64,000 bases of DNA from Sedimenticola sp. GTDB lineage: Bacteria > Pseudomonadota > Gammaproteobacteria > Chromatiales > Chromatiaceae. The stretch covers positions 1 through 64,000 of the forward strand of contig DRKS01000006.1 of the NCBI GenBank assembly GCA_011051655.1, in the 5' to 3' direction. Every line of letters begins with the position of its first letter. Positions within the stretch are counted from its first letter, which is position 1. This document shows, piece by piece, positions 1,407 to 23,602 of this stretch. Below the pieces are notes generated by a model. The model was not told where the DNA came from and made no database searches. It saw only the letters and a list, made by a program, of their open reading frames with translations. A program made the translations under genes and the position numbers.

Positions 1407-2141
1407 TCAGGCCACCTTCTCCTTCAGGCTCAGCTCGGAAAACAGGCGATAGGCCGGCTCCCTGAGCATCATCGCCGCCACATGGCGGGGGCCGGCCAGC
1501 AGTTGCCTCCGGCCTTCCTTTACATCCGCAAAATAAGGGATCCGGGTGCCGCGGTGCTCGCAACTGCCCCCCGCCTTGATCATTTTCAGATTCAGCCGGC
1601 CGACAATCCGCGCAAGGGCCGGGCTGATCAGAAAATAACAATATCTCACATCATTGTTCTTGGTCCATTCATAGAGGGCCCTCAGCAGCCCGACCAGGAT
1701 CTCCGGCTCCTTGCGCCGCTCCTTTTTGTTCCAGTGTTCGGCCGCCGATTTGCCGTCGATGACCTCGTAAGGGAGCCTCCGCTCATGCCGCCGGCGGCGG
1801 AAATCGCTGACCATGCACAATCGTGAGATTTCGCCAATGTGCCTGTGGTCGATACCGGCTATGAGGCTCTTGTCGAGGTTTTCGCAGATATGCTCCGCCG
1901 GCAGGTCCCCGTACCGCCCCAGGACCAGGCGCATGGTCGCTATCCAGTCATGGCTCGAACGGTCCCGTATGAGGAAATGCACGGCATGCTCATCATATTC
2001 GTCGCACTCCTTGCCATCCGGAAATGCGGCGGGATCCTCAAATCCCGTCTCGGAACAAAATACCCGGTAGCGGAGACGATAATGGATATCGCGCGCCTCT
2101 TCGGTATCCGCAAGCACAACCTCGAAATGGGTGTCGAACAT
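1407..2141 (-). CDS. PEP-CTERM/exosortase system-associated acyltransferase
   Basis: A 244-residue protein of the GNAT/autoinducer-synthase fold. The N-terminal RLRYRVFCSETGFE block is typical of N-acyl amino acid synthase/AHL-synthase relatives, and the EISRLCMV strand followed by a basic RRRR loop matches the family annotated as exosortase-system associated (TIGR03694 type). It is presumed to transfer an acyl chain from acyl-ACP or acyl-CoA to an unknown amine acceptor. A PEP-CTERM protein and PrsT are encoded 16-20 kb away, which supports the system link, but no exosortase is in this window. It has the same orientation as the next acyltransferase, 220 bp upstream. Confidence 0.8.
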   Translation of the reverse strand: MFDTHFEVVLADTEEARDIHYRLRYRVFCSETGFEDPAAFPDGKECDEYDEHAVHFLIRDRSSHDWIATMRLVLGRYGDLPAEHICENLDKSLIAGIDHRHIGEISRLCMVSDFRRRRHERRLPYEVIDGKSAAEHWNKKERRKEPEILVGLLRALYEWTKNNDVRYCYFLISPALARIVGRLNLKMIKAGGSCEHRGTRIPYFADVKEGRRQLLAGPRHVAAMMLREPAYRLFSELSLKEKVA

Positions 2142-2361: not shown

Positions 2362-3597
2362 TTATTGGGTGAGCGCTTTTGCAAGGAACCGGATGCGGCG
2401 ATCCGTATACTCAACGGCTTGTTTCTTTTTCTGCGCCTCCAGGTATTCCCGGGCCTCCTGCTCGCTGACCCCGGCATCACGCGCAAACTCAACCAGGCCC
2501 ACCTTGGCCAGAAGCACACCGGGCCGCTTTGCATCGGGGGTCGCCGAGCTTTTTATATCCTCCAGCGCATGGATCATGCGGTAGATTTTCGAGCCCCGGA
2601 GATCGGCCATGAGGGCCGCGATAAACTCATCGGCGCGGCGGATGCGCGCGGCAAGAAACTCAAACATATCCTGCACCAGGCCCGGCTGCTCCTCCAGGCC
2701 GCCATGAAAATCCGCTCGATCCAGCGCAATGAGCTCCACGTTGGTCAGGGCCGTGGCGTGGGCGGAACGCGGCTTGGCGTCGATCAAGGACAATTCACCG
2801 AACATGTCGCCTCGCCCCAATGTAGCCAGGGTATATTCCCCGGCCTCCTCACCGGAAGTCCGGGAGATCCTGATAGCACCGGTGTCGATAATATAGGCCT
2901 CGTGGCCGGCATCACCCTCCTGGAACAGGGTCTCGCCGCTGCCCAAAATAACGCGCTGAAAACGGTTGGCGAAGATTTCCAGAAACTTCCTGCTTTCTAT
3001 GAGATCGCCAAAGGTCCAGTTATAGAAATCCTCGAATGAAGCGGCCATGGGCTGCACATGGTCCCCGATGGTCTCCACCCACAGCTCATCGCTCAACGGC
3101 TCGAAGCCCATCCGGGCATACATGGACGCCGTCTTCGCACTCGGTGTCGTGATGACATGGGTGCCTCCCCACATCCGCCCCATGCCCGCCCCCATTTTCA
3201 GCAGGGCGCGTATGACGTCACGGCGGTTCCGCCAGTCGGGGTGAATGGCCAGCATCCCCGCACTCCCGAAACTGGGGGGAGAATCATGGTCACGCAGCCA
3301 TTCCTCAGTGATCCTTTCCTGGTAATCGGAAGAATCAAAGATATCATCCGGGGGCAAGCCAACGCCCGCATCCAGATTGATGCGCATGGTGCCAACGGGC
3401 TCTCGATCACAGTACGCAATAATATTTCCGACCGGAGGCAGGGCGTCAAAACGATCAGACACCGTGCCGGATTTTTTTGAAGGATCCCCCTTCAGCACCC
3501 CTTCACCTTCCACATAAACCCGATAGCGCAGGCGAAAGACATCATTCAGCTCTTCAGCGGTTTGCGCGATTTTTATCCTGACCGACATTGACGGCAT
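2362..3597 (-). CDS. GNAT-like acyltransferase fused to a cyclic-nucleotide-binding domain and a winged-helix-like tail
   Basis: 411 residues in three parts. Residues 5-175 form a GNAT/N-acyl amino acid synthase-like domain with FRLRYRVYVEGEG near the N-terminus and a SAGMLAIHPDWRNRR acyl-CoA-binding-type segment at 112-126. Residues 205-320 are a cAMP/cGMP-binding beta-roll; the phosphate cassette FGELSLIDAKPRSAH (266-280) keeps the Glu and Arg used for cyclic nucleotides. Residues 355-410 resemble a Crp-type winged helix. Inference: acyl transfer controlled by cyclic nucleotide, perhaps with DNA binding. Mycobacterial PatA (Rv0998) has the opposite domain order. Substrate unknown. Confidence 0.75.
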   Translation of the reverse strand: MPSMSVRIKIAQTAEELNDVFRLRYRVYVEGEGVLKGDPSKKSGTVSDRFDALPPVGNIIAYCDREPVGTMRINLDAGVGLPPDDIFDSSDYQERITEEWLRDHDSPPSFGSAGMLAIHPDWRNRRDVIRALLKMGAGMGRMWGGTHVITTPSAKTASMYARMGFEPLSDELWVETIGDHVQPMAASFEDFYNWTFGDLIESRKFLEIFANRFQRVILGSGETLFQEGDAGHEAYIIDTGAIRISRTSGEEAGEYTLATLGRGDMFGELSLIDAKPRSAHATALTNVELIALDRADFHGGLEEQPGLVQDMFEFLAARIRRADEFIAALMADLRGSKIYRMIHALEDIKSSATPDAKRPGVLLAKVGLVEFARDAGVSEQEAREYLEAQKKKQAVEYTDRRIRFLAKALTQ

Positions 3598-4231: not shown

Positions 4232-6055
<1,824 letters not shown>

Positions 6056-6120
6056 CCTGGTGCCGATGGCGTTAATAATGTGATAGAAACAAACGATCTA
6101 GTTTAGCATGTGAAACGGGG

Positions 6121-7878
6121 CTATTCCAGGTCCGGGGCCTTTTTAATGTCATTGTCCGCCTGTTCCCTGAACAACTGATTCAACCGTTGCTTTTCCTCTT
6201 TAGAGATAGTGCTTTGACGGGCTTTTTCAAGTAATTGTTCCGTCTCTTGCTCGCGGAACTGGGCCTGCAGGCGCAGGAGGGCGTCTCTGAATTCAGCGTC
6301 CTGGCCGTTTGCCGGAAGATCCATGGCGGCCAGCTTACCGAGGTAGCGTCCCTCTTTCCTGTCGCGCCAGTGCTCAAACAGGGCGCCCCTGCTGATGGCG
6401 GGGTTCGCCTGAAGGGTTTCGAGCAACTCCTTGAGCAGGTCGATACCAGGGGCCTCCAACCCCTTCCACTCCGTGGGGAGGCCGGGTGTCCGGGCAAGTT
6501 CCGGATGCTGCAGCAGCAGGGCAATGGCCAGGCGCACCGGGGTCATGGGCTGAAGACCGGATCGCCCGGGCCGGGAGAGCACCCGCTTGTTTCCGCCGGT
6601 GGTTTTGCTGCTCAAATGCTTCGGGTCCAGGCCCACGAGTTCGCCCAAATGTGCGTACATCATGTCGCGGAAGACCCCTGGCGGCAGTCTGGCCAGCAGG
6701 GGCCTCGCCAGCTCCGCCAGGCGGGCCCGGCCGTCCAGGCTGTCCATATCGACCTGTTCGGCGAGCTTCTCGAACAGGAATCTGGAGAGGGGCATGGCGT
6801 CGTCGATGCGCTTTTCGAAGGCCGCCGTTCCCTCCTGGCGCACCAGACTGTCCGGGTCCTCCCCCTCGGGCAGGAACAGGAAACGCACCTCCCGGCCCTC
6901 GCGCATCAGGGGCAGGCTGGTGTCGAGGGCCTTCCAGCCGGCGTCGCGCCCGGCGCGGTCGCCGTCAAAGCAGAAGATGATCTCCGGGGCGGTGCGGAAC
7001 AGGCGCGCCAGATGATCGGGGGTGGTGGCGGTGCCCAGGGTGGCCACGGCGTAGCGGATGCCGAACTGGGCCAGGGCGACCACGTCCATGTAGCCCTCCA
7101 CCACCAGCAGGCGCTTTATCCGGCGCAGGGCCTTGTGGGTCTCGTGCAGGCCGTACAGTTCGCGGCCCTTGTGAAATACAGGGGTCTCGGGTGAATTCAG
7201 GTACTTGGGTTTTGTATCATCCAGGACGCGGCCGCCAAAGCCGATGGTGCGCCCGCGGTGGTCCCGGATGGGGAACATGATGCGGTCGCGGAAGCGGTCG
7301 TAGCAGCGGCCGTCGGATTCCGAGGTCATGCCGGCCTCGCGCAGTTGCTTCAATCCTTGCGGGTCCCCGCCCAGGTGCCGCATCAGGTTGTCCCACCCCG
7401 GCGGGGCGTATCCGATGCCGAAGTCGTTGGCGATTTCGCCGCTGAGCCCCCGGGCCTTCAGATAATCGATGGCGCGGCCGGCCTGGGGGTGGGTTCTCAA
7501 TTGCCCGGCATAGAACCGGGCGGCCTGTTCGAGGGTTTCGTAGAGCGGGCGGCAATCCGGCCCGGCCTTGCCGCCGCCCTCGCGGGGCACCTCCAGACCG
7601 GCCTGCTGGGCCAGTTCCTCCACCGCCTCCACGAAGCTCATGTTGTCGTATTCCATGAGGAAGCCGATGGCCGAGCCGTGGGCGCCGCAGCCGAAACAAT
7701 GATAGAACTGCTTGTCCCGGCTGACGGTGAAGGAGGGGGTCTTTTCGTCGTGGAAGGGGCAGCAGGCCTGGTAGTCCTTGCCGGCCTTTTTCAGCGGCAG
7801 GCGCCGGTTGATGAGGTCAACGATATCGGCCCGGCTCAGGAGGTCGTCGATGAAGGCGGTGGGAATTCTGCCAGCCAT
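6121..7878 (-). CDS. dnaG: DNA primase DnaG
   Basis: 585 residues. The N-terminal CHC2 zinc finger is complete (Cys40, His43, Cys61, Cys64). The TOPRIM core follows (VVEGYMDV, then FCFDGDRAGRDA with the metal-binding acidic residues). A shorter C-terminal helicase-binding domain completes it. It makes RNA primers at the replication fork together with DnaB. It is co-oriented with yqeY and rpsU in the classic macromolecular synthesis operon. Confidence 0.98.
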   Translation of the reverse strand: MAGRIPTAFIDDLLSRADIVDLINRRLPLKKAGKDYQACCPFHDEKTPSFTVSRDKQFYHCFGCGAHGSAIGFLMEYDNMSFVEAVEELAQQAGLEVPREGGGKAGPDCRPLYETLEQAARFYAGQLRTHPQAGRAIDYLKARGLSGEIANDFGIGYAPPGWDNLMRHLGGDPQGLKQLREAGMTSESDGRCYDRFRDRIMFPIRDHRGRTIGFGGRVLDDTKPKYLNSPETPVFHKGRELYGLHETHKALRRIKRLLVVEGYMDVVALAQFGIRYAVATLGTATTPDHLARLFRTAPEIIFCFDGDRAGRDAGWKALDTSLPLMREGREVRFLFLPEGEDPDSLVRQEGTAAFEKRIDDAMPLSRFLFEKLAEQVDMDSLDGRARLAELARPLLARLPPGVFRDMMYAHLGELVGLDPKHLSSKTTGGNKRVLSRPGRSGLQPMTPVRLAIALLLQHPELARTPGLPTEWKGLEAPGIDLLKELLETLQANPAISRGALFEHWRDRKEGRYLGKLAAMDLPANGQDAEFRDALLRLQAQFREQETEQLLEKARQSTISKEEKQRLNQLFREQADNDIKKAPDLE

Positions 7879-11383: not shown

Positions 11384-11500
11384 CCGCTAAAATTGTGACA
11401 CCGGTTTTGCCCTCCCTCGGAATTTATGCCGGTATTTTTCTGGTTTTGATGTATACTTTGCTTTGATTTTAGCGTGCAACCCATTGCGTGCTCTAAAAAA

Positions 11501-12367
11501 ATGCTAACCAATATCCAGCATCTCATCGGCCTGGGCAGGCCGGCGCACCCCCTGAGGCGGTACGCCCGGCTTGGGGTTTTGGCATGGCTGGCGGGCGGGC
11601 TGCTTTTCCCCGTGCTCAGCCTCTCCGCCGGCCAGGGGGATGGAAGGGCCCTGGCCCAGCGGGTCTATGACCGGGCGGATGGAAAAGACGTCAGCACCCG
11701 GGCCCTGATGGTTCTGACCGAGAAAGGCCACCGCCCCCGCCAGCGGAACATGTATACCTATGCGATGGAGAGGGGCAAGGGCGAGCGGTGGTCCCTCACC
11801 CGCTTTACCAGGCCCGCCGACATCGCGGGCACCGGCCTTCTGACCCTGGATTATCCTGGCGACAAGAGCGATCAATGGCTCTATCTGCCGGCCCTGGACC
11901 GGGTCCGGCGGATTGCATCCTCCCGCAAGGGGGGGCGCTTCGTCGGCTCCGACCTGTTCTACGAGGATCTGCGGGACAGGGAGGTCGACATGGATCATCA
12001 CCGCCTGGCGGGAAAGGGCAAGGCGGGCGGCCTGATGTGCGACATCCTCATCAGCACGCCGGTGGATCCCGGCAATTCGGTTTACTCCAGGCGGATAAGC
12101 TGGATCCACCCCAAGACCCTTGTTCCACTCCGGGTGGACTATTACCAGAAGGGGCGCAAGAAGCCGGTCAAGCGCATGAAAGTACGCAAGATCAAAAAGA
12201 TCCAGGGTTACTGGACAGTCATGGACAGCACCATGTACGACCTGAAGACCGGCCACAGGACCCGGCTGGTGACGAAGGCGATCAAATACGACCAGGGGTT
12301 GCCCGAGGCGCTGTTCTCACGCCAGGCGCTGGCGGATGATTCCAGGGAGAAGAAGTACCGTCCTTGA
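11501..12367 (+). CDS. outer membrane lipoprotein-sorting (LolA-like) protein
   Basis: About 288 residues with an N-terminal signal sequence (hydrophobic LGVLAWLAGGLLFPVLSLSA). A LolA-like beta-sheet domain follows, of the type annotated as outer membrane lipoprotein-sorting protein: RPADIAGTGLLTLDYP, then SDQWLYLPALDRVRRI and GSDLFYEDL. It probably shuttles a lipid or lipoprotein across the periplasm. A barrel gene follows 16 bp downstream and an RND exporter is encoded nearby, a recurring three-part arrangement. A GTG start at 11474 is an alternative; neither start has a clear Shine-Dalgarno. Confidence 0.75.
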   Translation: MLTNIQHLIGLGRPAHPLRRYARLGVLAWLAGGLLFPVLSLSAGQGDGRALAQRVYDRADGKDVSTRALMVLTEKGHRPRQRNMYTYAMERGKGERWSLTRFTRPADIAGTGLLTLDYPGDKSDQWLYLPALDRVRRIASSRKGGRFVGSDLFYEDLRDREVDMDHHRLAGKGKAGGLMCDILISTPVDPGNSVYSRRISWIHPKTLVPLRVDYYQKGRKKPVKRMKVRKIKKIQGYWTVMDSTMYDLKTGHRTRLVTKAIKYDQGLPEALFSRQALADDSREKKYRP

Positions 12368-12383
12368 CAGCGGGCCATAACCG

Positions 12384-13904
12384 ATGAAAGCCGTAACCCA
12401 GATTCCATGCCTTTTGCTTGCGGCCCTGCTGGTCTCTCCGGCCTGGGGGGAAGGCCGGGATATGCTCCCGCCCGAGGCGGAGGAGCAAGAAACAATCATC
12501 GAAGACGATGCCGCTGTTTTGATCGAAGAGGACGGGATCACCACGGCCATCGAAATCGAGGACGATGCCGAAGAAGCCGGGGAGACGGATGAGGTCATCC
12601 TGGAGGAGGACGGCGCGGTCATCGAAGAGGCGTTTCCCGGCGGGGAGCCGGCGGACTATGAAGATGACGCCCAGCTTGCGGACGCCGGGCGGGAACCACG
12701 GGCAAAGAGCGGCCTTTCCGCCGGCATCGACGAGGCCTGGGCGGAGGCTGGGTATGTAACGGATCCGAATGCGGCGGCCAACACCAGCGATTACCTGCAT
12801 GTCGCCTTCAGCGCCCGCTGGGACTCCGGCGGGGCCTGGGAGGCCCGGCTGGCGGGCCGGGTGGACGGCTATTACCAGTCGGGCAGCCAAAGCCCGGGGC
12901 GCACCCAACTGGATTATGGCGAGAGCTTTATCCGCTACCGGGGCGGCGACTTCCGCATCACGGCCGGCACGCAGACCATCATCTGGGGCCGCATCGATGA
13001 ACTGCCGCCGACGGACCGGCTCAGCGTTTTCGACCTCTCCCGCTTCATCCTCGATGATCTCGCAGACCGGCGCCGGGCGCAGCCCGCGGTCCGCCTGGAA
13101 TACTTCAACGACGCCGGCAAGCTCGACCTGGTCTGGCTGCCGGACTTTCGGGAAGCCAGGCTTCCGGGGCGCAGCAGCATCTGGTTCCCGGTGGACCGGC
13201 AAAAAGGCGAGCTGCTGGGGCTCGAGTCCACGCCGGCCTCGCGGGCCCTGGTCAAAGCAGGCACTTTTACCGAGCACGCCCCGGATGGCGATGGCGGCTT
13301 CGGGGCCCGCTACAGCCACACCGCATCCCAATTCGACTATGCGCTGACGATCCAAAGGGTCCGGCAGTCCACCCCCTACTACGAAATGGTCAGCCCCGGC
13401 CGTTACAAGGCCCGGTATCCGCGTTCCTGGGTGATGGGCGGCGATCTCGGCTATGAAGCGCTGGGCGCCACCTGGCGGCTGGAGGGCGCCTACCTCAGCG
13501 AGATCCCCGTTACGAAAAAGGATGCCACCTATACGACCACCGAGGGTATCGGCTGGGCGGCGGGGGTCGAGTTCTATCCGGGCGATGGCGACGTGCGCGT
13601 CAATCTGCAACTGGTGGGCAACAACCTGATCGACGCGCCCGGCATCCGTGACCGCAAGGAAACCTACAACTTCAACGGCGAGGTCGAAAGCCAGTTCGCC
13701 CACAACCGCTGGCGTGCCAAGACCCGCTTCTTCGTGGGGCTGGACAAAAAGGACATCTATCTCAATCCTGAGGTCGCCTACATCGGCTGGGAACCCCACG
13801 AGATCTATCTTGGCGCGCACTACTTCGATGGAGCAAACGGCACCCTGGGTGGTTTTCACGAAGACCACTCCCTTCTGACCCTTGGCTGGCGGGCCAAGTT
13901 CTAG
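12384..13904 (+). CDS. DUF1302-like outer membrane beta-barrel with acidic N-terminal segment
   Basis: 506 residues. A signal peptide (to about residue 23) is followed by a striking Glu/Asp-rich stretch (about 26-97, with repeats like IEEDG, ILEEDG, IEDDA). After this come about 400 residues of barrel-like alternating strands, with GTQTIIWGRIDELPPTDRLS in the position of DUF1302 'WGE.D' motifs, ending in aromatic-Lys-Phe (RAKF), a typical outer membrane assembly signal. It is the likely outer membrane partner of the LolA-like protein and the RND exporter. The acidic domain is not a usual part of the family. Confidence 0.7.
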   Translation: MKAVTQIPCLLLAALLVSPAWGEGRDMLPPEAEEQETIIEDDAAVLIEEDGITTAIEIEDDAEEAGETDEVILEEDGAVIEEAFPGGEPADYEDDAQLADAGREPRAKSGLSAGIDEAWAEAGYVTDPNAAANTSDYLHVAFSARWDSGGAWEARLAGRVDGYYQSGSQSPGRTQLDYGESFIRYRGGDFRITAGTQTIIWGRIDELPPTDRLSVFDLSRFILDDLADRRRAQPAVRLEYFNDAGKLDLVWLPDFREARLPGRSSIWFPVDRQKGELLGLESTPASRALVKAGTFTEHAPDGDGGFGARYSHTASQFDYALTIQRVRQSTPYYEMVSPGRYKARYPRSWVMGGDLGYEALGATWRLEGAYLSEIPVTKKDATYTTTEGIGWAAGVEFYPGDGDVRVNLQLVGNNLIDAPGIRDRKETYNFNGEVESQFAHNRWRAKTRFFVGLDKKDIYLNPEVAYIGWEPHEIYLGAHYFDGANGTLGGFHEDHSLLTLGWRAKF

Positions 13905-14524: not shown

Positions 14525-17146
14525 ATGAAAGACGAGCGCACACGCCGCACCAGGCTCGACCATTCGCGCAAACCCATTGCGATTATCCACGATGGCGTCT
14601 TCGTCTATGCAAACCCGGCGTTTCTCAAGCGCCTGGGTTACGATGATTTTGCCGGCCTCGAAGCGATCACGGCGCTTGACATGGTATCGCAGCACTATCG
14701 GGACCGGTTCCGTGATCACCTGAAGCAGGCGGAGGCTTTCCCGCAATCCCATCCGGATCTTCCCTCAACCAAGATATCGCTACGGAAGAATGACGGATCG
14801 CATCTGATAGCAATCGTACAGTCGCACCAAACGACGTTCGAGAGCGAAAAATGTATCCAGATCTGTTTTCGGACAAAAGAGGATACATCACTGAAAAACA
14901 CCATCCTCAACCTGCCATGGAAGCTTTACCTGAGTATCGTATTTTTAGTGGTTTTTACGCTCCTGCCGCCAGTGCTGCTAACACGGCTCAACATCAACAA
15001 TGCGCCAAAGGTCTTCATGCCGAAGGATGCGCCTGCCGTCATCGCCGATGATGCTTTGCGTGAGTCCTTTCCCAGTGACCAAGTCATTATCCTGCTGTTT
15101 GAAGGAGTGGCGCTATTTTCTGACGGGTTTTTACAGGCATTCGACGACCTCGCCGAAACGCTCCAATCCGACCCCAGAATAGATGACGTTATCTCGGTCA
15201 CGACCCAGGACCATATTGCCGGCAGCGTTGACGGCTTTTCAGTCGAGCCTTTGATTGACGTCGCCAAACTGGACGAGTCGCGCCCCAAACAGCGGCAGCG
15301 GCGCGTGGTCAGTGATCGTTTTGCCAAGGACATGCTTGTCGCAGGCGATGGATCCGCGCTGGCAATGGTTGTCGTGCCGGCCGCAGATGAGAACAGCATC
15401 CAGCGTCTTCGGCTTGAGGAATCCGTTCTTTCGGCGGTTGATCAAACCCGCCTGGCAGGGTATCTGAGCGCGGTCTCCGGGCAGCTTGCCGTCGATGTAG
15501 CGGAATTTCGATCCATGCTGCGGGATAATATGATCTTTATTCCGGCCAATATCGTGATTGGGCTGTCATTGATCTGGTTGTTGTTCCGCCGCTGGCTGGC
15601 CGTCGTTGTCGCCGGGGTGTCGATCGGGGTGGTCACCAGCTCCACGGTGGCCTTCTACGTCCTGTTCGATAAGCCGTTTACGCTGATTTCAAGTATTGTT
15701 CCTCCACTTCTGTCCGCTCTCACGGTCGCCACCCTGATCCACTTGTTCAATGCGTTGCACTACGCTTCCCAGCGGGGACTGGCGGGACGGTACAGGGTTA
15801 AAAAGGCGCTGGCTGAAATCCGCCGTCCGGCCATGTTCACAACCCTGACCACGGCGGCGGGCCTGGCTTCGCTCGCCACCAGCACCATTCCGCCGATAAG
15901 GGATTTCGGGCTAATTGCGGCGGGCGGCGTGGTGCTGATCTATTTCGTAGTGATTGGCATTGTGCCAAACATATTCGCCCGCTGGGACTATACGCAATGG
16001 CCCAAAAGCAAGGGAGGACTGCGGTGGATGGATGCCGCCGTGAGACGGCTGCTGCACATAGGGATTCGTTATCCCGTATGGGTGGTGGCGGTTGTTTTGG
16101 GCCTCCTGGCCATTGGCGTACCGCAGATATGGAATGTCAAAGTAGAATCCAACCTACAGGAGTTTTTTCTTGACGACCATCCGATACGGAAAGCCACGGA
16201 CCGGATCGAAGACAAATTATCAGGCACGACCTCTTTGGATGTCGTCTTCAAATCGCCTGTCCGTGACGGCCTGAAAAAAATCGGCAATCTTCGGTTGATA
16301 CGCGATTTTCAGCACTGGGTGGAAGCATCGCCGGAAGTAGACAATTCAACCTCACATGTCGATTTCATCGAGGAGATGAACTGGGCATTCAATTCCGAGA
16401 ACGCCGCTTACCGGCGCATCCCGGATGATGAAAAACTCATCAGCCAGTATCTGTTCGTCTATGATGGCGAGGACATCTATGACTTCGTTGACAGGGACTT
16501 CAAGACTTCGCATGTCAACCTGAGCATTAATGTACATGGCGCCAATGAGATCAATCGGGTCATGAACCTGGCAAGGAGCTACCTGGAAGAATCCGTAGGC
16601 CAAAAACTGGATTGGGATATTGCGGGGCATGGACGATTGTTCGCGGACCAGGTGGATCTCTTGGTGCGGGGACAGGTTCTCAGCCTTTGGACCGCACTGG
16701 GCCTTATCTTTCTTCTTATGCTGATTCTCTGGCGATCAGCAGGAGCAGCATTGTTATGCATGATTCCGAACATGTCCCCGATCCTGCTTATTTTTATAAT
16801 AATGGGCGTAACGGGAATCTGGCTGGATATTGCCACGGTCCTGATCGCAGGCATCGCCCTTGGCATTGCAGTGGATGATACAATCCATGTTTACCATGGA
16901 TTTATCCACCGTATGAAAGGCGGCGCGGCACCGGTAGTCGCGCTGTCCAGAACATTCGGGCAAGCCGGACGCGCCGTGATGACCACAACCATTATTTTGT
17001 GCGCCCAGTTCATTATTCTTCTGGTGTCACAATTTGTTCCTACAACACACTATGGATTATTAACCAGTGTGGGGCTGTGGGCAGCACTGCTCTTTGATTT
17101 ATTGTTATTGCCGGCACTATTTGTTCTCATATATCACAAGCCATGA
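14525..17146 (+). CDS. RND/MMPL-family exporter with an N-terminal PAS domain
   Basis: 873 residues. Residues about 10-118 form a PAS sensor (RKPIAIIHDGVFVYANPAFL, then LRKNDGSHLIAIVQS). The first membrane helix begins near 135. The rest is a COG1033-type RND transporter with two large periplasmic loops and two helix bundles; GIALGIAVDDTIHVYHGF near the end carries the proton-relay Asp pair. The exporter probably extracts a lipid-like substrate from the inner membrane for the LolA-like carrier. The PAS domain would lie in the cytoplasm and could gate transport. Base composition is lower in GC than the housekeeping genes. Confidence 0.82.
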   Translation: MKDERTRRTRLDHSRKPIAIIHDGVFVYANPAFLKRLGYDDFAGLEAITALDMVSQHYRDRFRDHLKQAEAFPQSHPDLPSTKISLRKNDGSHLIAIVQSHQTTFESEKCIQICFRTKEDTSLKNTILNLPWKLYLSIVFLVVFTLLPPVLLTRLNINNAPKVFMPKDAPAVIADDALRESFPSDQVIILLFEGVALFSDGFLQAFDDLAETLQSDPRIDDVISVTTQDHIAGSVDGFSVEPLIDVAKLDESRPKQRQRRVVSDRFAKDMLVAGDGSALAMVVVPAADENSIQRLRLEESVLSAVDQTRLAGYLSAVSGQLAVDVAEFRSMLRDNMIFIPANIVIGLSLIWLLFRRWLAVVVAGVSIGVVTSSTVAFYVLFDKPFTLISSIVPPLLSALTVATLIHLFNALHYASQRGLAGRYRVKKALAEIRRPAMFTTLTTAAGLASLATSTIPPIRDFGLIAAGGVVLIYFVVIGIVPNIFARWDYTQWPKSKGGLRWMDAAVRRLLHIGIRYPVWVVAVVLGLLAIGVPQIWNVKVESNLQEFFLDDHPIRKATDRIEDKLSGTTSLDVVFKSPVRDGLKKIGNLRLIRDFQHWVEASPEVDNSTSHVDFIEEMNWAFNSENAAYRRIPDDEKLISQYLFVYDGEDIYDFVDRDFKTSHVNLSINVHGANEINRVMNLARSYLEESVGQKLDWDIAGHGRLFADQVDLLVRGQVLSLWTALGLIFLLMLILWRSAGAALLCMIPNMSPILLIFIIMGVTGIWLDIATVLIAGIALGIAVDDTIHVYHGFIHRMKGGAAPVVALSRTFGQAGRAVMTTTIILCAQFIILLVSQFVPTTHYGLLTSVGLWAALLFDLLLLPALFVLIYHKP

Positions 17147-17450: not shown

Positions 17451-20285
17451 ATGTTTAGAATCCGTATTACACCCTCGTTATCAGCAAACAAAACACCAAG
17501 AGTGATATGCATGGTGATATTGATGTCCATCATTGCCCTCCCTGGTTGCGGTGAGGTCGGAATGACGGATGCCGAATATGTGGAGCGCGCCAAGGACTAC
17601 CAAGACAAAGGCAAATTGGAAGCAAGCGTGATCGATTTAAAAAACGCACTGCGCCAGAATCCGAATAATCCGGAAGCACGCTGGCTCTTGGGTAATATTT
17701 ACTTGGATCAAAAAAACGGCCCAGCTGCCGAGAAGGAACTCCTAAGAGCCATGGAATTGGGAGTGAGCGAGGAAGCTGTCAAACCCTTACTTGGAGAAGC
17801 ACTGCTGTTGGCCCATGAGTACAACCGGCTGCTTGAACAAGTCAAGCCAGCCAACGGCGCAACGCCGCAAAACAGGGCAAAAATCCTTCGCATGCATGGC
17901 GATGCCAATTTGGCCCTGGGCCGGCTCGATAATGCATGCCGATTGTATGAGCAGGCGCTACCGCTGGACAGCCGCCATATTCCCACTTACTGGGGGCTGG
18001 CAAATTGCGCCCTTGCAAAAAAAGACAAAGCGCTGGCTCGCAAGCATGTGGATACGGCCTTGAAACTTGACAAGAACAATGCGGAGAGTTGGGTCGTGCT
18101 CGGCGACCTGGAACGCTTTGGCAACAATCTTGCCGCAGCGAGAATGGCATACTCCAATGCCCTTGAACGCGACCCAAATTTGTTTTCTGCATTAGTCAAC
18201 CGCATGCATCTCTTTTTGGCTGACGGCAAAAACGACAAAGCCAAGCAAGATCTGGGCAGAATCCAAAAAATAGCGCCCAAATATTTCATGACCCATTATT
18301 TACAGGCCCTCCTGCACTACGCAGTTGGCGAAACAGATGATGCCCTGGACTCCGTGCAGGAGGCCCTCAAGACCCGGCCGGATTATCCACCCGCAATATT
18401 TCTGCTTGGCCTGTTGCAGTACGACAGCAAGTCTTATGAACAGGCGAGCAGGAATTTTGAACGTTATTTACAGTATCGCCGGGGCAGCCCAGATGCGCTC
18501 AAGATTCTTGCCGCCACCTACCTCAAGCTAAATCAACCGGATCGCGCCCAAGTCTTATTGAAGCCTTATCTTGCATTACCCGGGGCAGACGCCAGACTGC
18601 TGGCATTGGCGGGCGAGGCCTATCTGCGCACGGATAACCCCAGGTCCGCTCTGGGCCTCTTCGAGAAGGCCGCCGAACTCGTTCCCGCCAGTGCCGTGCT
18701 GCGCACGAAAATAGGCTTGAGCCGGCTGGCTGCCGGCGAGGAAAGCAAGGCCATAGAGGAACTGGAGGCCTCCTCCGCCCTGAGCGCCAAGGATTACCGG
18801 GCGGACCTGGCCATTGCCTATTACTACCTGGGGAATGGCCAATACGATAAAGCACTGGCCTCGGTCGCCATGTTGGAGAAAAAAGTTCCGGAGAGCCCCG
18901 GCACCTATAACCTCAAGGGTCGGGCTTACCTGGGAAAGAATAATCTTGTACTGGCCCGTAAAAATTTTGAAAAAGCCCTGTCTCTCAAGCCCACCCTCAT
19001 TTCCGCAGCCGCTGGCCTGGCCGCAATAGACCTCCAGGAAAAGGATCCTCAGGCGGCCCGGGACCGCTACCAGGCCATACTGGAGAAAGACCCCAAGAAT
19101 ATCCCTGCCATGGTCGGGTTGGCCGACCTGGCGGCCTTTGAGAAAAATGAGCAGGAGTATCTGGGCTGGCTGGAACGAGCAGCGGAGGTCCGCTCTTCGG
19201 CATTTGTTCCCCGGGCCCTCCTGGCCAACTACTATCTTGACAAAGGTGAACAGCGGAAGGCCCTGGGTATTGCCAGGGACGCCTGGAACGCCAGGCCTGA
19301 CAGCCTGGAGGCGCTGGGACTCCTGGGGCGCATGCAACTGGCGGCGGGAGAGAAGGAGAACGCCCTGGCGACCTACACCAAGCTCACATCCCTGGCGCCT
19401 AGATCGGCGTCTGCCTGGTATCATCGAGCCAAGGCACATGCGGCGGCAGGTGATGCAAAGGCTGCACGTAGCGCCTTGCGTAAGGTGCTTGAGATCGATC
19501 CGGAATATGCGGACGGCCTGCGCGCTCTTTCCGCCCTTGAAACCCGCTTGGGCAACCATGATGAAGCACTGTCACTTGCCCGCGAACTGCAAAGGCTCAC
19601 CCCTGACTCCCCTGCCGGTCTGGCGCTGGAAGGCGATGTCAGGATGGCGGCCGGGGCCTATGCGCAAGCCGCGCAAATCTACGAGAAAGCCCTTGCCAAG
19701 GGCCAGGGAGGCGCACTGGCGGCCAAGCTGCATCAGGCGTTGTTGCAGTCGGGAGACGCCAAAAAAGCGGATGGCATGCTGCTGGCCTGGCTGGAGACCC
19801 ACCCCCAAGACAGTGCGGCCCGGGCCTATCTGGCCCGGAGTTACCTCATGCGGCAGTTCAACCGCCGGGCGATAGAACAATTGGAGATCCTGCTGCATGG
19901 TACGCCGGATGACCCGATAGCGCTCAACAACCTCGCCGTCCTGTACCAGGAGGAAAAGGACCCCAGGGCGCTGGAAACGGCGGAGAAGGCCTACCGCCTC
20001 AACCCCGGCAGTCCGGAAATAGCGGACACCCTTGGCTGGATCTTGGTGGAACAGAATCAGATCACCAGGGGCCTGCAACTGCTGCGGGACGCCACCCTCG
20101 CGGCCCCCAAGGCCATGGAGACCCGTTACCATTACGCTGTCGCCCTGGCGCGCTCAGGGGACAGGGCTGCGGCCCGTGAGCAATTGCAGGCGCTCCTGTC
20201 CAGTGGCAAAGATTTTCCCCAGAAAGAGGCCGCCCGGACCCTGCTGGAGCGGCAAAGTCCGCGGGAAGAAAAATTGGCGCAATAA
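17451..20285 (+). CDS. prsT: PEP-CTERM system TPR-repeat lipoprotein PrsT
   Basis: 944 residues. A lipoprotein signal with Cys33 in ALPGC is followed by about 20 tetratricopeptide-like repeats. The opening MTDAEYVERAKDYQDKGK and the length match the PrsT family of exosortase/PEP-CTERM gene sets. It is predicted to be a periplasmic lipoprotein scaffold for protein sorting or exopolysaccharide assembly. The first 370 or so codons are visibly AT-richer than the rest. A PEP-CTERM substrate gene is convergent immediately downstream. Confidence 0.92.
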   Translation: MFRIRITPSLSANKTPRVICMVILMSIIALPGCGEVGMTDAEYVERAKDYQDKGKLEASVIDLKNALRQNPNNPEARWLLGNIYLDQKNGPAAEKELLRAMELGVSEEAVKPLLGEALLLAHEYNRLLEQVKPANGATPQNRAKILRMHGDANLALGRLDNACRLYEQALPLDSRHIPTYWGLANCALAKKDKALARKHVDTALKLDKNNAESWVVLGDLERFGNNLAAARMAYSNALERDPNLFSALVNRMHLFLADGKNDKAKQDLGRIQKIAPKYFMTHYLQALLHYAVGETDDALDSVQEALKTRPDYPPAIFLLGLLQYDSKSYEQASRNFERYLQYRRGSPDALKILAATYLKLNQPDRAQVLLKPYLALPGADARLLALAGEAYLRTDNPRSALGLFEKAAELVPASAVLRTKIGLSRLAAGEESKAIEELEASSALSAKDYRADLAIAYYYLGNGQYDKALASVAMLEKKVPESPGTYNLKGRAYLGKNNLVLARKNFEKALSLKPTLISAAAGLAAIDLQEKDPQAARDRYQAILEKDPKNIPAMVGLADLAAFEKNEQEYLGWLERAAEVRSSAFVPRALLANYYLDKGEQRKALGIARDAWNARPDSLEALGLLGRMQLAAGEKENALATYTKLTSLAPRSASAWYHRAKAHAAAGDAKAARSALRKVLEIDPEYADGLRALSALETRLGNHDEALSLARELQRLTPDSPAGLALEGDVRMAAGAYAQAAQIYEKALAKGQGGALAAKLHQALLQSGDAKKADGMLLAWLETHPQDSAARAYLARSYLMRQFNRRAIEQLEILLHGTPDDPIALNNLAVLYQEEKDPRALETAEKAYRLNPGSPEIADTLGWILVEQNQITRGLQLLRDATLAAPKAMETRYHYAVALARSGDRAAAREQLQALLSSGKDFPQKEAARTLLERQSPREEKLAQ

Positions 20286-20356: not shown

Positions 20357-21301
20357 TCAGGCCTTGCGACGCCTGCGGGCGGCGCCTCCCACACCCAGCA
20401 GCCCGGCGGCGAGCAACGCCAGGCTGGCCGGCTCGGGAACCTTCTTGGTGAAGTCGAAGTCGCTCCGCCCGAAGGCCCCGTTGGTGAGTCCATAGCCACC
20501 CAGCACATCGCCGCTGCCCGTGACGCCGAAGAGCGTGTCAGGATCACCCGTATTGCCCACGATGCCATCGCCAAAGCCGCTGCAGCCACCAAGGCAATCC
20601 ATGGGCTTGAGCGCGTGGCCGGTGCCATTGTACATCCCGGAGAGGGCATAGTTGACAACTGCGGCCTTAGTGCTTGGCCCTATGTCATCTGCGGAATCAG
20701 TGTCGCTGTCTGCATCCGTAAGTTTATCCAAGGCGTTAAAGGCGACCCACATCTCATCCGGATCGTCTTCGAAACCGTCGACCTCCCACAGCATTCCGTC
20801 GCCCGCCTTGGCCACGCAGTCATTCAGGCTGGTGCAATCGGCGGACACGGCATCGAAATCCGGGGTGCTGTCAAAATAGCCGGCGACCATGGCGCCGTTG
20901 CCCGCATCACCCAGGGTTCCCGGAAGCTCGGGCAGGCCCGCTAAGGTAAGGATGGCATCGAGCCCCGCGGAGTGGGGGCCGAAAGTGAAATCATAGCGGC
21001 CGGGGGTCGCTGTAGCTGTTTTGGTCACTACCTGCACCGCAGCGATGCCTGTGAGCTCGCCACCCGTGATACCGGCGCTGCTCCCAGCAGGAATCACCGA
21101 AGCAGTTTGGTCGATCTCGAATACTGCGATCAGTGTCTCGCCAACATCCAGGATGCCATCATCGTTGCCGTCAAGATGGAAATCGAGGTTGTTATCCTCA
21201 AAGGTGGTGTAGGGCTGGTACCAAGTGATGCCCGCCGCCGCCGGGCCTGCGCCCAGCGCGAAAGACAGTGCTGCGATCAGTGGTAGGGCCTTGATTTTCA
21301 T
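20357..21301 (-). CDS. PEP-CTERM sorting-domain protein
   Basis: 314 residues. It has a signal peptide (cleavage near AAAG), an extracellular-type body rich in Asp/Gly (HLDGNDDGILDVGE), and a textbook PEP-CTERM tail: VPEPASLALL, a short hydrophobic helix, then RRRRKA at the C-terminus. Such proteins are exported, cut at the PEP motif by exosortase and usually become cell-surface or matrix glycoproteins. The cysteine pair region (CLGGCSG) may form disulfides. The upstream region carries a predicted sigma-54 promoter. Confidence 0.92.
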   Translation of the reverse strand: MKIKALPLIAALSFALGAGPAAAGITWYQPYTTFEDNNLDFHLDGNDDGILDVGETLIAVFEIDQTASVIPAGSSAGITGGELTGIAAVQVVTKTATATPGRYDFTFGPHSAGLDAILTLAGLPELPGTLGDAGNGAMVAGYFDSTPDFDAVSADCTSLNDCVAKAGDGMLWEVDGFEDDPDEMWVAFNALDKLTDADSDTDSADDIGPSTKAAVVNYALSGMYNGTGHALKPMDCLGGCSGFGDGIVGNTGDPDTLFGVTGSGDVLGGYGLTNGAFGRSDFDFTKKVPEPASLALLAAGLLGVGGAARRRRKA

Positions 21302-21641: not shown

Positions 21642-22712
21642 CTATTCGCCGCCACGCCACTCAAAGCTGGACAGCGGCCGGCGTGCCCCCCTGTTTTTGT
21701 TCAGCCCGGCAGCCCGCCCCATGCGCAACAGCAGCAGGCCACAGCCGCCGGAGCAAGCCTGTTCCAGGGCTTGCCGGATCAACCCGAGGCGGTCTTGAAA
21801 ACGGGCTTCGACCTCGACGAAACCCAGTCCAAGCACGCCGGGGGCGGCGTAGGGCTGGATGGAGAGCCCCGCGGCGGTGGCCCGCAGCCAGACGCGCTCC
21901 AAGGCGCGTCCGGCGGCGAGGATGGCCGGGCGGTCCTCACCTTCGATGCACAGCAGGGCCAGCCCGGGCGAAAGCCTGACGGGCAGCACCGCCGAGCGCA
22001 AGCCCATCAGCCGGGCCCCGCCGATGGCGTTGAAGGCGCGCATCAGGGGCCAATGCCGCAGGGCCTTGAAAAAGGGCCACACCGGGGCCTCAATTCCCAG
22101 GCTGCGGGGGGACAGGCCTTCCGGGCAGGCGCCTTTCCGGCCGGCGGAAAAACAGATGCTCGAAAACAGTTCGTGATGCAGCCGCCTGCTTTGGAAACGC
22201 AGGGATTCCGCTGTTTGCAGGGCCTTCAGCACAGCATGGCGCTGCTGGCTGCCGGGGTCAAGCCAGACAAGCCTGGCCCCGGGCAACTGCGACGCCTCTG
22301 CGGCCAATGCCTGCCGCAGCGCCTCTTCAACAGGGCCTTTCCAGGGAAACCGGCGGTCGGTGCAGCGCCTGGGGATGGCCTGGGCCAGCGCCGTATCGGG
22401 CGGCTCCTTATTGGATGGGGAGAATTCCAGCCTAGCGACCCAGAGGGGATCCTGTTCTTCATCGGGGAGGTATTGGACCTTGTCCGTGTAACCCAATGCG
22501 CGCGCCTGGATGCAGAGGTTTTCGATGCAGGCCCCCAGCCCCAGGTCACTCAGCACGTACCTGGCATCGGAGGGCTTTCCGGCGCGCCGGGCGTCGATCC
22601 AGAGGTCGAGGGCATCTCCCATCCAGCGGTACAGCCAGGGCTGGGAGTTGTCGGCGGAGGGGGCCGCGACCGCGGCTTCGAGAAGTGTGTTTTTATCCCG
22701 GGGTGTCAGCAT
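21642..22712 (-). CDS. nitroreductase-family protein paired with a ThiF-like enzyme
   Basis: 356 residues from the ATG at 22712. The N-terminal EAAVAAPSADNSQPW is the FMN-binding opening of nitroreductase-like proteins. The central RRCTDRRFPWKGPV and later GLALLCIEGEDRPAILAAGRALERVWL match the Rv1355c/MoeY type, where a ThiF domain and a nitroreductase domain are fused. Here the two domains are separate adjacent genes, 23 bp apart on one strand. The reaction is unknown; a redox tailoring step acting on an adenylated product is an inference. Confidence 0.75.
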   Translation of the reverse strand: MLTPRDKNTLLEAAVAAPSADNSQPWLYRWMGDALDLWIDARRAGKPSDARYVLSDLGLGACIENLCIQARALGYTDKVQYLPDEEQDPLWVARLEFSPSNKEPPDTALAQAIPRRCTDRRFPWKGPVEEALRQALAAEASQLPGARLVWLDPGSQQRHAVLKALQTAESLRFQSRRLHHELFSSICFSAGRKGACPEGLSPRSLGIEAPVWPFFKALRHWPLMRAFNAIGGARLMGLRSAVLPVRLSPGLALLCIEGEDRPAILAAGRALERVWLRATAAGLSIQPYAAPGVLGLGFVEVEARFQDRLGLIRQALEQACSGGCGLLLLRMGRAAGLNKNRGARRPLSSFEWRGGE

Positions 22713-22735
22713 TTCCGCGCCTTTGTGTTTGGGGG

Positions 22736-23602
22736 CTAATCCCGCCCGCGCCTGAGCTGGCGCCGGGCAATGGCGAGCCCGAGCCTTTGCAACGGGTTGC
22801 GGTTGCCCATGGGCCGCCATGTGTGTACCAGTTTGTTCCGGTAGGCATCAAATTGCACGCCGTGGGGGGCGGCACGCACCGGCCCCCGTCCGAGCAATAT
22901 CTTGAGGGCCTCGGTGGCCGCCATTCCGGCGCAGATCTCGCAGGCCATGGGGGTGGAGGGCCCCTTATGATTGACGAAGTCCACCGCCTCGGGATGCACC
23001 AGATAGCCACGCTGAAGCATGGCCGGCGACAGGCCGAGCAGAAATCGGATGAGCTGTTCCTGTTCCGTGTGCCCCTCGAGCTGGAAATAGTCTTCAAAAC
23101 CCATCTTCCCCGGGAGGAAGTTCAGCACAGCGGCGCCCATGCCGAGGGGGGCGGCGGTGACGGCCGGGATGTTCCTGTCCGCGCAGGCGGCGAATACGGT
23201 GCGGCGGGCGGATACGGCAAAATAGTCCAAGCCGTCGACGTAGAGATCGACGCCGTCAAGAAAATCACTGATGTTGTCTTTATTGATTCCGGTGGGAAAT
23301 TTGCGGATATCCAGTTCCGGGTTGATATCCAGGGCCATCCCGGTGAGGACATCCACTTTGTCCTGGCCGATGCGGCTGAGGAATGCCCCCGCCTGGCGGT
23401 TGAAGTTGGCCAACTCAAAGTGGTCGAAGTCGGCGACATGGAAGGCGCCTATGCCTAGGCGGGTCAGCGTCAGGAGATGGCTGCCGCCGACACCCCCCAT
23501 GCCTGCGATAGCGATACGCTTGGTCCGCAGAATATCTTGCTCGTGCGGCCTCACCCAGCCGGTATTGCGTGAAAAGGCTTTGTGGTAGTCGAATCCGGGC
23601 AT
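22736..23602 (-). CDS. ThiF/E1-like adenylyltransferase
   Basis: 288 residues of the E1/ThiF/MoeB fold. It has the nucleotide loop GMGGVGG (34-40), the DFDHFELANFNRQ stretch carrying the conserved Asp and Arg, and VDGLDYF as the second acidic motif. The family adenylates a protein C-terminus or small substrate in the cytosol. No ubiquitin-like protein or rhodanese domain is nearby. It is the first gene of a two-gene unit with the nitroreductase-like gene. A metal-binding Cys pair (CEICAG) resembles part of the MoeB/ThiF zinc site. Confidence 0.85.
   Translation of the reverse strand: MPGFDYHKAFSRNTGWVRPHEQDILRTKRIAIAGMGGVGGSHLLTLTRLGIGAFHVADFDHFELANFNRQAGAFLSRIGQDKVDVLTGMALDINPELDIRKFPTGINKDNISDFLDGVDLYVDGLDYFAVSARRTVFAACADRNIPAVTAAPLGMGAAVLNFLPGKMGFEDYFQLEGHTEQEQLIRFLLGLSPAMLQRGYLVHPEAVDFVNHKGPSTPMACEICAGMAATEALKILLGRGPVRAAPHGVQFDAYRNKLVHTWRPMGNRNPLQRLGLAIARRQLRRGRD

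Follow-up and report, generated by a model that had tools for sequence, protein, structure and literature searches.

Cyclic-nucleotide control of an N-acyl amino acid synthase (NAS) has been known since 2007, when cAMP was described as a direct activator of NasP, a metagenomic N-acyl-phenylalanine synthase (Clardy & Brady 2007, cited in PMC4897644); as far as the accessible literature on NasP shows, no link to a ThiF or oxidase gene was reported. Nas343 and Nas354 have a C-terminal PilZ (c-di-GMP) domain following the NAS domain, and mutation of the catalytic Glu103 of Nas354, equivalent to Glu95 of FeeM, abolished activity (PMC4897644). The structure of FeeM itself (2g0b), a type I NAS, contains Glu95 and no regulatory domain. 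A cyclic-nucleotide-binding domain (CNB) is also found fused to a GNAT domain in mycobacterial Pat/PatA, which are cAMP-controlled lysine acetyltransferases. NAS-type acyltransferases further occur in clusters with a ThiF cyclase and a flavin-dependent oxidase (FDO): M. tuberculosis produces acyl-oxazolones with TyzA (FeeM-like), TyzC (oxidase) and TyzB (ThiF cyclase), next to whose genes lies mmpL9 (PMC10404671), and OxzAB and TrzAS are analogous to TyzABC (PMC12856293). Published descriptions of the Tyz, Oxz and Trz systems report no cyclic-nucleotide domain on the acyltransferase, and trzAS only has nearby c-di-GMP turnover genes. The same trio of NAS, ThiF and nitroreductase is present in producers of N-acyl-dehydrotyrosine, for which oxazolone was not detected (PMC12479983). 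The role of bacterial oxazolones is unsettled. In 2011 an association of NAS genes with PEP-CTERM/exosortase systems was reported, with no known reason. In Methylomonas LW13, a polysaccharide band was lost when an exosortase-associated NAS was disrupted (PMC11072679).

The protein described here, which we call NAS-Crp, is encoded in the window, by which we mean the whole 64,000-nucleotide stretch of Sedimenticola sp. DNA that was analysed. As modelled, it joins a NAS domain of FeeM fold to an entire Crp protein. The gene, its parts and its acyltransferase neighbour are as follows.

2362–3597, minus strand: NAS-CNB-winged helix (wHTH) fusion (NAS-Crp), 411-aa open reading frame, start probably at 3588
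2995–3588, minus strand: FeeM-type NAS domain, residues 4–201, with Ser112 at the FeeM Glu95 position
2605–2988, minus strand: CNB and C-helix, about residues 204–331; cassette G267 E268 ... P276 R277 S278; C-helix R318xRRxD323
2383–2592, minus strand: Crp-fold winged helix with an acidic recognition helix, residues 336–405
1407–2141, minus strand: exosort_acyl, PEP-CTERM/exosortase-associated acyltransferase (TIGR03694, E = 3e-57, 193.8 bits against a cut-off of 111.95)

The 411-aa reading frame is intact, with no internal stops. Met4 is invariant across the NAS-Crp family, the family alignment begins there and most homologues start there; a GGGAG lies 9 nt ahead of the Met4 ATG and is well spaced for that ATG only, so the start codon is probably 3588 rather than 3597 and the gene 2362–3588. 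No promoter or terminator signals above shuffled controls were found around the gene. Pfam identified FeeM (PF21926, E = 2.5e-21, residues 19–186, 76.5 bits against a cut-off of 27) and cNMP_binding (PF00027, E = 7e-20, residues 219–299). The tail, residues 336–405, has no Pfam match, and its winged helix is seen by AlphaFold2 and by profile. The AlphaFold2 model of the full protein, made with a 15-member alignment, has a mean pLDDT of 86 and a pTM of 0.76, and its Crp tail comprises a C-helix (305–331), a helix (336–350), the helix-turn-helix (HTH) helices 368–375 and 379–391, and two wing strands. The family profile aligns through the HTH with E. coli CRP, MtbCRP and GlxR over residues 200–394 and with Thermus 4ev0 over residues 206–390, which makes the C-terminal half an entire Crp protein; MtbCRP and GlxR were also the top Foldseek matches of the full model, and AlphaFold2, profile and Foldseek agree on CNB, C-helix and winged helix in the Crp/Fnr order. 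What sets NAS-Crp apart from Crp/Fnr proteins is the acidic recognition helix and the enzyme-like domain at the N-terminus. The initial annotation, a GNAT acyltransferase followed by a CNB and a Crp-like winged-helix tail with an intact phosphate-binding cassette, beside an exosortase-associated acyltransferase, is upheld on all these points, the neighbour by the TIGR03694 match listed above and the cassette by G267, E268 and R277, invariant in 15 of 15 members (S278 in 14 of 15). It had also called the domain order the reverse of that in PatA, and this holds: residues 206–329 match positions 12–129 of the 317-position Pat model, the CNB being C-terminal here and N-terminal in Pat. This match is confined to the CNB half and scores 29.8 bits against a cut-off of 460, for which reason kinship with PatA was rejected; the closest precedent, from the part of its literature accessible to us, is NasP.

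When the NAS domain was modelled alone (pLDDT 91.5), its best Foldseek match was FeeM, with 2g0b chains on top and TM scores of 0.75/0.78, despite only 15% identity. A phmmer search of the PDB with the domain alone gave no matches, and a 17-sequence profile was needed to find them. The FeeM segment LAEVVQFAMD, which contains the proposed catalytic Glu95 (identified by position), aligns with FGSAGMLAI of the window protein, so that Ser112 falls at Glu95. All 17 sampled NAS domains of the subfamily, with or without a CNB, lack an acidic residue on the equivalent strand, and the small residue at the Ser112 site varies between S, T, A, C and G, whereas Asp or Glu is found on that strand in the majority of PF21926 members outside the subfamily. 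E[IV]SR occurs in each of eight exosort_acyl proteins examined, and the neighbouring exosort_acyl at 1407–2141 keeps the catalytic-type GEISRL motif, including the acid absent from NAS-Crp, which itself scores 15.6 bits with the exosort_acyl model, below the cut-off of 111.95. Residues R24, D48, D51 and R72, which we take to be the positions of conserved LuxI-family residues, are invariant in the NAS-Crp family, as is a G80-x-P82 motif. By alignment, the NAS half keeps the fold and much of the substrate site and has lost the canonical catalytic acid. The initial annotation had counted a lack of acyl-CoA/ACP-binding residues in the N-terminal domain among the signs against its reading, and the loss of the FeeM acid bears this out in part. 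Loss in 17 of 17 domains, taken with the essential Glu103 of Nas354, counts against NAS-Crp as an active synthase. The absence of an acid supposed to be essential either puts the mechanism of NAS enzymes to the test or marks an enzyme that has become a sensor.

Within the CNB and C-helix, R318, R320 and D323 are invariant in the family. At the position corresponding to what we take to be Thr-Ser in the C-helix of CRP, the family has [ATML]D, which was counted against a nucleotide-gated reading. Thermus 4ev0, among the nearest Crp sequences in the PDB, is said to need no effector. The source genome has two class III nucleotide-cyclase genes. From the sequence we infer that a cyclic nucleotide binds the Crp half, cAMP being most likely and cGMP possible. 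Nearly every member has an acidic recognition helix, the mean net charge being -2.1 where the helices of four ordinary Crp relatives have +1 to +2, and the first Crp-contact Arg position (R-E-x-V-x-R) is Glu in 11 of 15 members. The wHTH is also the least conserved domain, with a mean pairwise identity of 33% as compared with 46% for the NAS domain and 47% for the CNB. Crp-style DNA binding by this winged helix is unlikely because of its acidic recognition helix, and a role of NAS-Crp as a DNA-binding regulator was set aside on account of that charge.

The fusion is not a chance one, since 14 further full-length homologues, 39–52% identical, exist in several gammaproteobacterial families. Among the relatives searched, full-length NAS-Crp was found in genomes G044, G041 and G054 and a copy cut by the contig end in G042; the copy in G038 is frame-broken within the NAS part (L039, 3759–4957), and G026 has a NAS-only protein. 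The class sample of 369 genomes contributed 11 further genomes, one of which (G108) has two copies, and the phylum sample one NAS-CNB protein of 30% identity without the winged helix (G432). The reverse order, CNB-NAS, occurs too (G587, L081); there a CNB-like domain precedes a FeeM-type domain that apparently has no catalytic acid. A single-protein scan of genome contigs returned only a Paenibacillus locus matching the CNB part alone, a plasmid search gave CNB matches only, among them an Azospirillum plasmid protein rejected as an ordinary Crp regulator, and a viral fold search brought up nothing more specific than GNAT and Crp folds in general. Occurrence of the family is patchy, but its members are conserved.

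Genomic context links the NAS-Crp family strongly to ThiF/flavin-oxidase genes and to XrtA/PEP-CTERM genes. By our own count, 14 of 18 loci have exosortase/exopolysaccharide (EPS; PEP-CTERM) or oxazolone-type genes within about 22 kb of NAS-Crp. An XrtA-type EPS operon (export TIGR03027, chain length TIGR03007, tyrosine kinase TIGR03018, TIGR03016 and TIGR03015) adjoins NAS-Crp in G292, G255, G126, G147 and G368 and is found some 11 kb off in G202; most loci have PrsT. ThiF and an Acg-type oxidase are near NAS-Crp in G044, G054, G292, G399 and the window, and ThiF is near also in G202 and G313, whereas in G147 and G368 the EPS genes are near and ThiF does not adjoin. LolA-like, DUF1302-like and MMPL genes accompany NAS-Crp in G044, G054, G202 and G313, and LolA-like and outer-membrane protein genes in G113. 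At E ≤ 1e-50, 15 of 18 carriers have a ThiF homologue, as against 7 of the 40 non-carriers tested from the window's family (Fisher p = 2.8e-6); for carriers of that family alone the figures are 7 of 7 against 7 of 40 (p = 5e-5). At this threshold none was found in carriers G108, G113 and G147. An exosortase is present in 10 of 12 carriers against 117 of 357 others in the class sample (p = 6e-4) and, among relatives, in 6 of 7 carriers against 39 of 85 others (p = 0.056). The numbers of carriers take in the broken G038 copy and NAS-only G026. These tests ignore phylogeny, and their p values are therefore optimistic. The pairing with exosort_acyl to which the initial annotation had pointed recurs in G302 and beside the NAS-only member of G026, and with the window this makes only two or three loci; it was dropped as a defining neighbourhood, ThiF and PrsT being commoner partners.

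The window itself contains the following genes at 11.5–23.6 kb.

11474–12367, plus strand: LolA-like protein of outer-membrane lipoprotein sorting (a homologue adjoins NAS-Crp in G044, G054, G202, G313 and G113)
12384–13904, plus strand: DUF1302-like outer-membrane protein (Pfam match just below cut-off)
14525–17146, plus strand: MMPL/HAE3 transporter with an N-terminal PAS domain
17451–20285, plus strand: PrsT, XrtA/PEP-CTERM system TPR protein (TIGR02917, E = 6.8e-244)
20357–21301, minus strand: PEP-CTERM protein, C-terminal VPEPASLALLAAGLLGVGGAARRRRKA
21642–22715, minus strand: Acg/Rv1355c-type FDO, nitroreductase superfamily, TyzC-like
22736–23602, minus strand: ThiF-family adenylyltransferase/cyclase, TyzB-like; 20 nt separate it from the oxidase gene downstream

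Judged by homology, this is the same conserved set as found beside NAS-Crp in relatives, because its LolA-like, DUF1302-like, MMPL, PrsT, ThiF and oxidase genes accompany NAS-Crp there. The ThiF and oxidase genes adjoin each other, with no acyltransferase directly beside the pair, and lie 19 kb from NAS-Crp; rpoD, dnaG, tsaD and folate genes separate NAS-Crp from the cluster. This gap and the housekeeping genes in it count against a pathway link between NAS-Crp and ThiF. The source genome has a PEP-CTERM/XrtA system, with XrtA-type and XrtD exosortases, PrsT, TIGR03015/03016 and a PEP-CTERM protein. Like the Tyz, Oxz and Trz clusters, some NAS-Crp loci have genes for a NAS-type acyltransferase, a ThiF cyclase and an FDO, though in the window the first is distant from the other two, and the MMPL gene adjoining tyz in M. 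tuberculosis has a counterpart in the window cluster; unlike those clusters, they have PEP-CTERM/XrtA genes accompanying the set. The combination of PAS and MMPL/HAE3 in the transporter is unusual and suggests signal-dependent export.

The arrangement around ThiF bears on which gene fills the acyltransferase place. NAS-Crp lies directly before the ThiF gene in the same direction in G054, and adjacent to it and divergent in G044 and G292. Canonical exosort_acyl lies directly before ThiF in the carrier G042 and in the non-carriers G036 and G007, and beside it, divergent, in the non-carrier G011. NAS-Crp of G054 thus takes the place before ThiF that exosort_acyl has elsewhere, which is that of an acyltransferase. 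In the flanks fetched for G044, G054, G292, G202, G313 and G399, where ThiF is nearby, no canonical exosort_acyl turned up. However, canonical exosort_acyl also occurs near ThiF in carriers G041 and G042 and next to NAS-Crp in the window; NAS-Crp need not, then, be the acyltransferase. A stand-alone 158-aa CNB protein heads the operon CNB - exosort_acyl - ThiF-FDO in G042, and relatives of it adjoin PrsT-ThiF in G049 and also occur in the G292 region and at another place in the source genome (49% identical). Stand-alone CNB proteins of about 158 aa were located at L137 3617–4093, L143 about 5930–6490, L096 about 2320–2815 and L004 about 1444–1914, those of L137, L143 and L004 sharing a common C-terminal motif. 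As such proteins sit in ThiF/PrsT loci, the cyclic-nucleotide link recurs without fusion. At L047 6019–10318, NAS-Crp is followed on the same strand by a CNB-CNB-NTE/patatin phospholipase and exosort_acyl, so that two of three lipid enzymes have cyclic-nucleotide domains. Two different exosort_acyl genes stand head to head near ThiF in L145 and L138, and L143 has three copies, possibly a two-acyltransferase system.

We give an even chance to the reading that NAS-Crp is an acyltransferase of NAS type, gated by a cyclic nucleotide, whose product enters a lipid pathway to an oxazolone or N-acyl-dehydroamino acid with ties to exosortase/EPS; confidence in it is limited because the canonical catalytic acid is missing. 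A cyclic nucleotide would bind the Crp half and move the C-helix and dimer, and this movement would switch the NAS half between inactive and active states, by analogy with what cAMP does for NasP, which, so far as its accessible description goes, is likewise a NAS under direct cyclic-nucleotide control. The NAS half would place a long-chain acyl group, likely from acyl-ACP, on an amino acid, probably an aromatic one. The ThiF cyclase and nitroreductase-type oxidase would turn this N-acyl amino acid into an acyl-oxazolone or an N-acyl-dehydroamino acid, either product being conceivable because the N-acyl-dehydrotyrosine producers have the same trio. The MMPL, LolA-like and outer-membrane proteins would place or export the lipid in concert with the PEP-CTERM/exosortase and exopolysaccharide system, and the winged helix would be kept as structure (dimer, allosteric relay or partner contact) and not as a DNA reader. 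Gene content makes oxazolone-type lipid synthesis with PEP-CTERM/XrtA genes the likely pathway, a link outside the initial annotation, whose cyclic-nucleotide-controlled acylation module stays the best reading, although the FeeM acid is lost and the winged helix is not DNA-reader-like. More tentatively, at somewhat less than even chances, NAS-Crp may be a second-messenger switch fused to the first enzyme of an oxazolone-type pathway and coordinating that pathway with PEP-CTERM/exosortase exopolysaccharide export, as a cyclic-nucleotide-gated lipid branch of the exosortase system with an acid-free NAS site and both fused and unfused (CNB + exosort_acyl) forms. On the gated reading, a lipid associated with the outer coat of these bacteria may be under cyclic-nucleotide control.

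The main rival, which we consider unlikely but by no means negligible, is a sensor in which a dead NAS half binds acyl-ACP or an N-acyl product and, with cyclic nucleotide, controls exosort_acyl or its partners by protein contact. It would account for an acid missing throughout while the other conserved residues stay, for the relaxed Ser112 site, and for canonical GEISRL exosort_acyl beside NAS-Crp (window, G302), beside the NAS-only protein (G026) and near ThiF (G041, G042). Against this, the six ThiF-near loci named above have no exosort_acyl in their fetched flanks, and the NAS domain is as conserved as the CNB. That NAS-Crp is instead a cyclic-nucleotide-controlled acyltransferase acting on another target (protein lysine, an EPS amino sugar or a PEP-CTERM protein), with the ThiF/FDO link reflecting only a shared surface regulon, is improbable: the Pat/PatA precedent and the G147 and G368 loci speak for it, but by fold the NAS domain matches FeeM best and not Pat, and the ThiF co-occurrence is strong. 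Slightly more improbable still is a transcription factor of the Crp family that carries an additional acyl-ligand domain at its N-terminus and regulates EPS/PEP-CTERM and ThiF operons by binding DNA. The whole Crp architecture is present, and the gene is often divergent to or just upstream of an EPS operon or ThiF (G292, G255, G126, G147, G368, G044), but the charge of the recognition helix, Glu in place of the contact Arg and the poorly conserved wHTH argue otherwise.

Among the described systems, FeeM is structurally closest to the N-terminal domain of NAS-Crp (PF21926 above cut-off); NAS-Crp has Ser112 and a Crp half where FeeM has Glu95 and no regulatory domain. Nas343/Nas354 likewise have a NAS followed by a nucleotide second-messenger domain, which is PilZ and not Crp, and Nas354 retains its essential glutamate. 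A Crp fusion with a degenerate HTH, an acid-less NAS subfamily and the ThiF/FDO and PEP-CTERM link were not found in the literature examined. The NAS-Crp family brings together a domain of NAS type, a switch for cyclic nucleotides, enzymes of oxazolone type and the exosortase system, and so makes an oxazolone role and the NAS-exosortase link testable in one gene.

Two other FeeM-type fusions were noted. Plasmid pDVUL01 of Nitratidesulfovibrio vulgaris (L111, 7062–10031) encodes a 989-aa NAS (with Glu)-ThiF-oxidase fusion within an XrtA/PEP-CTERM exopolysaccharide cluster, which is annotated as ThiF family only, and a 649-aa open frame in L082 (G422) fuses a FeeM-type domain to what looks like a PLP aminotransferase-type domain.
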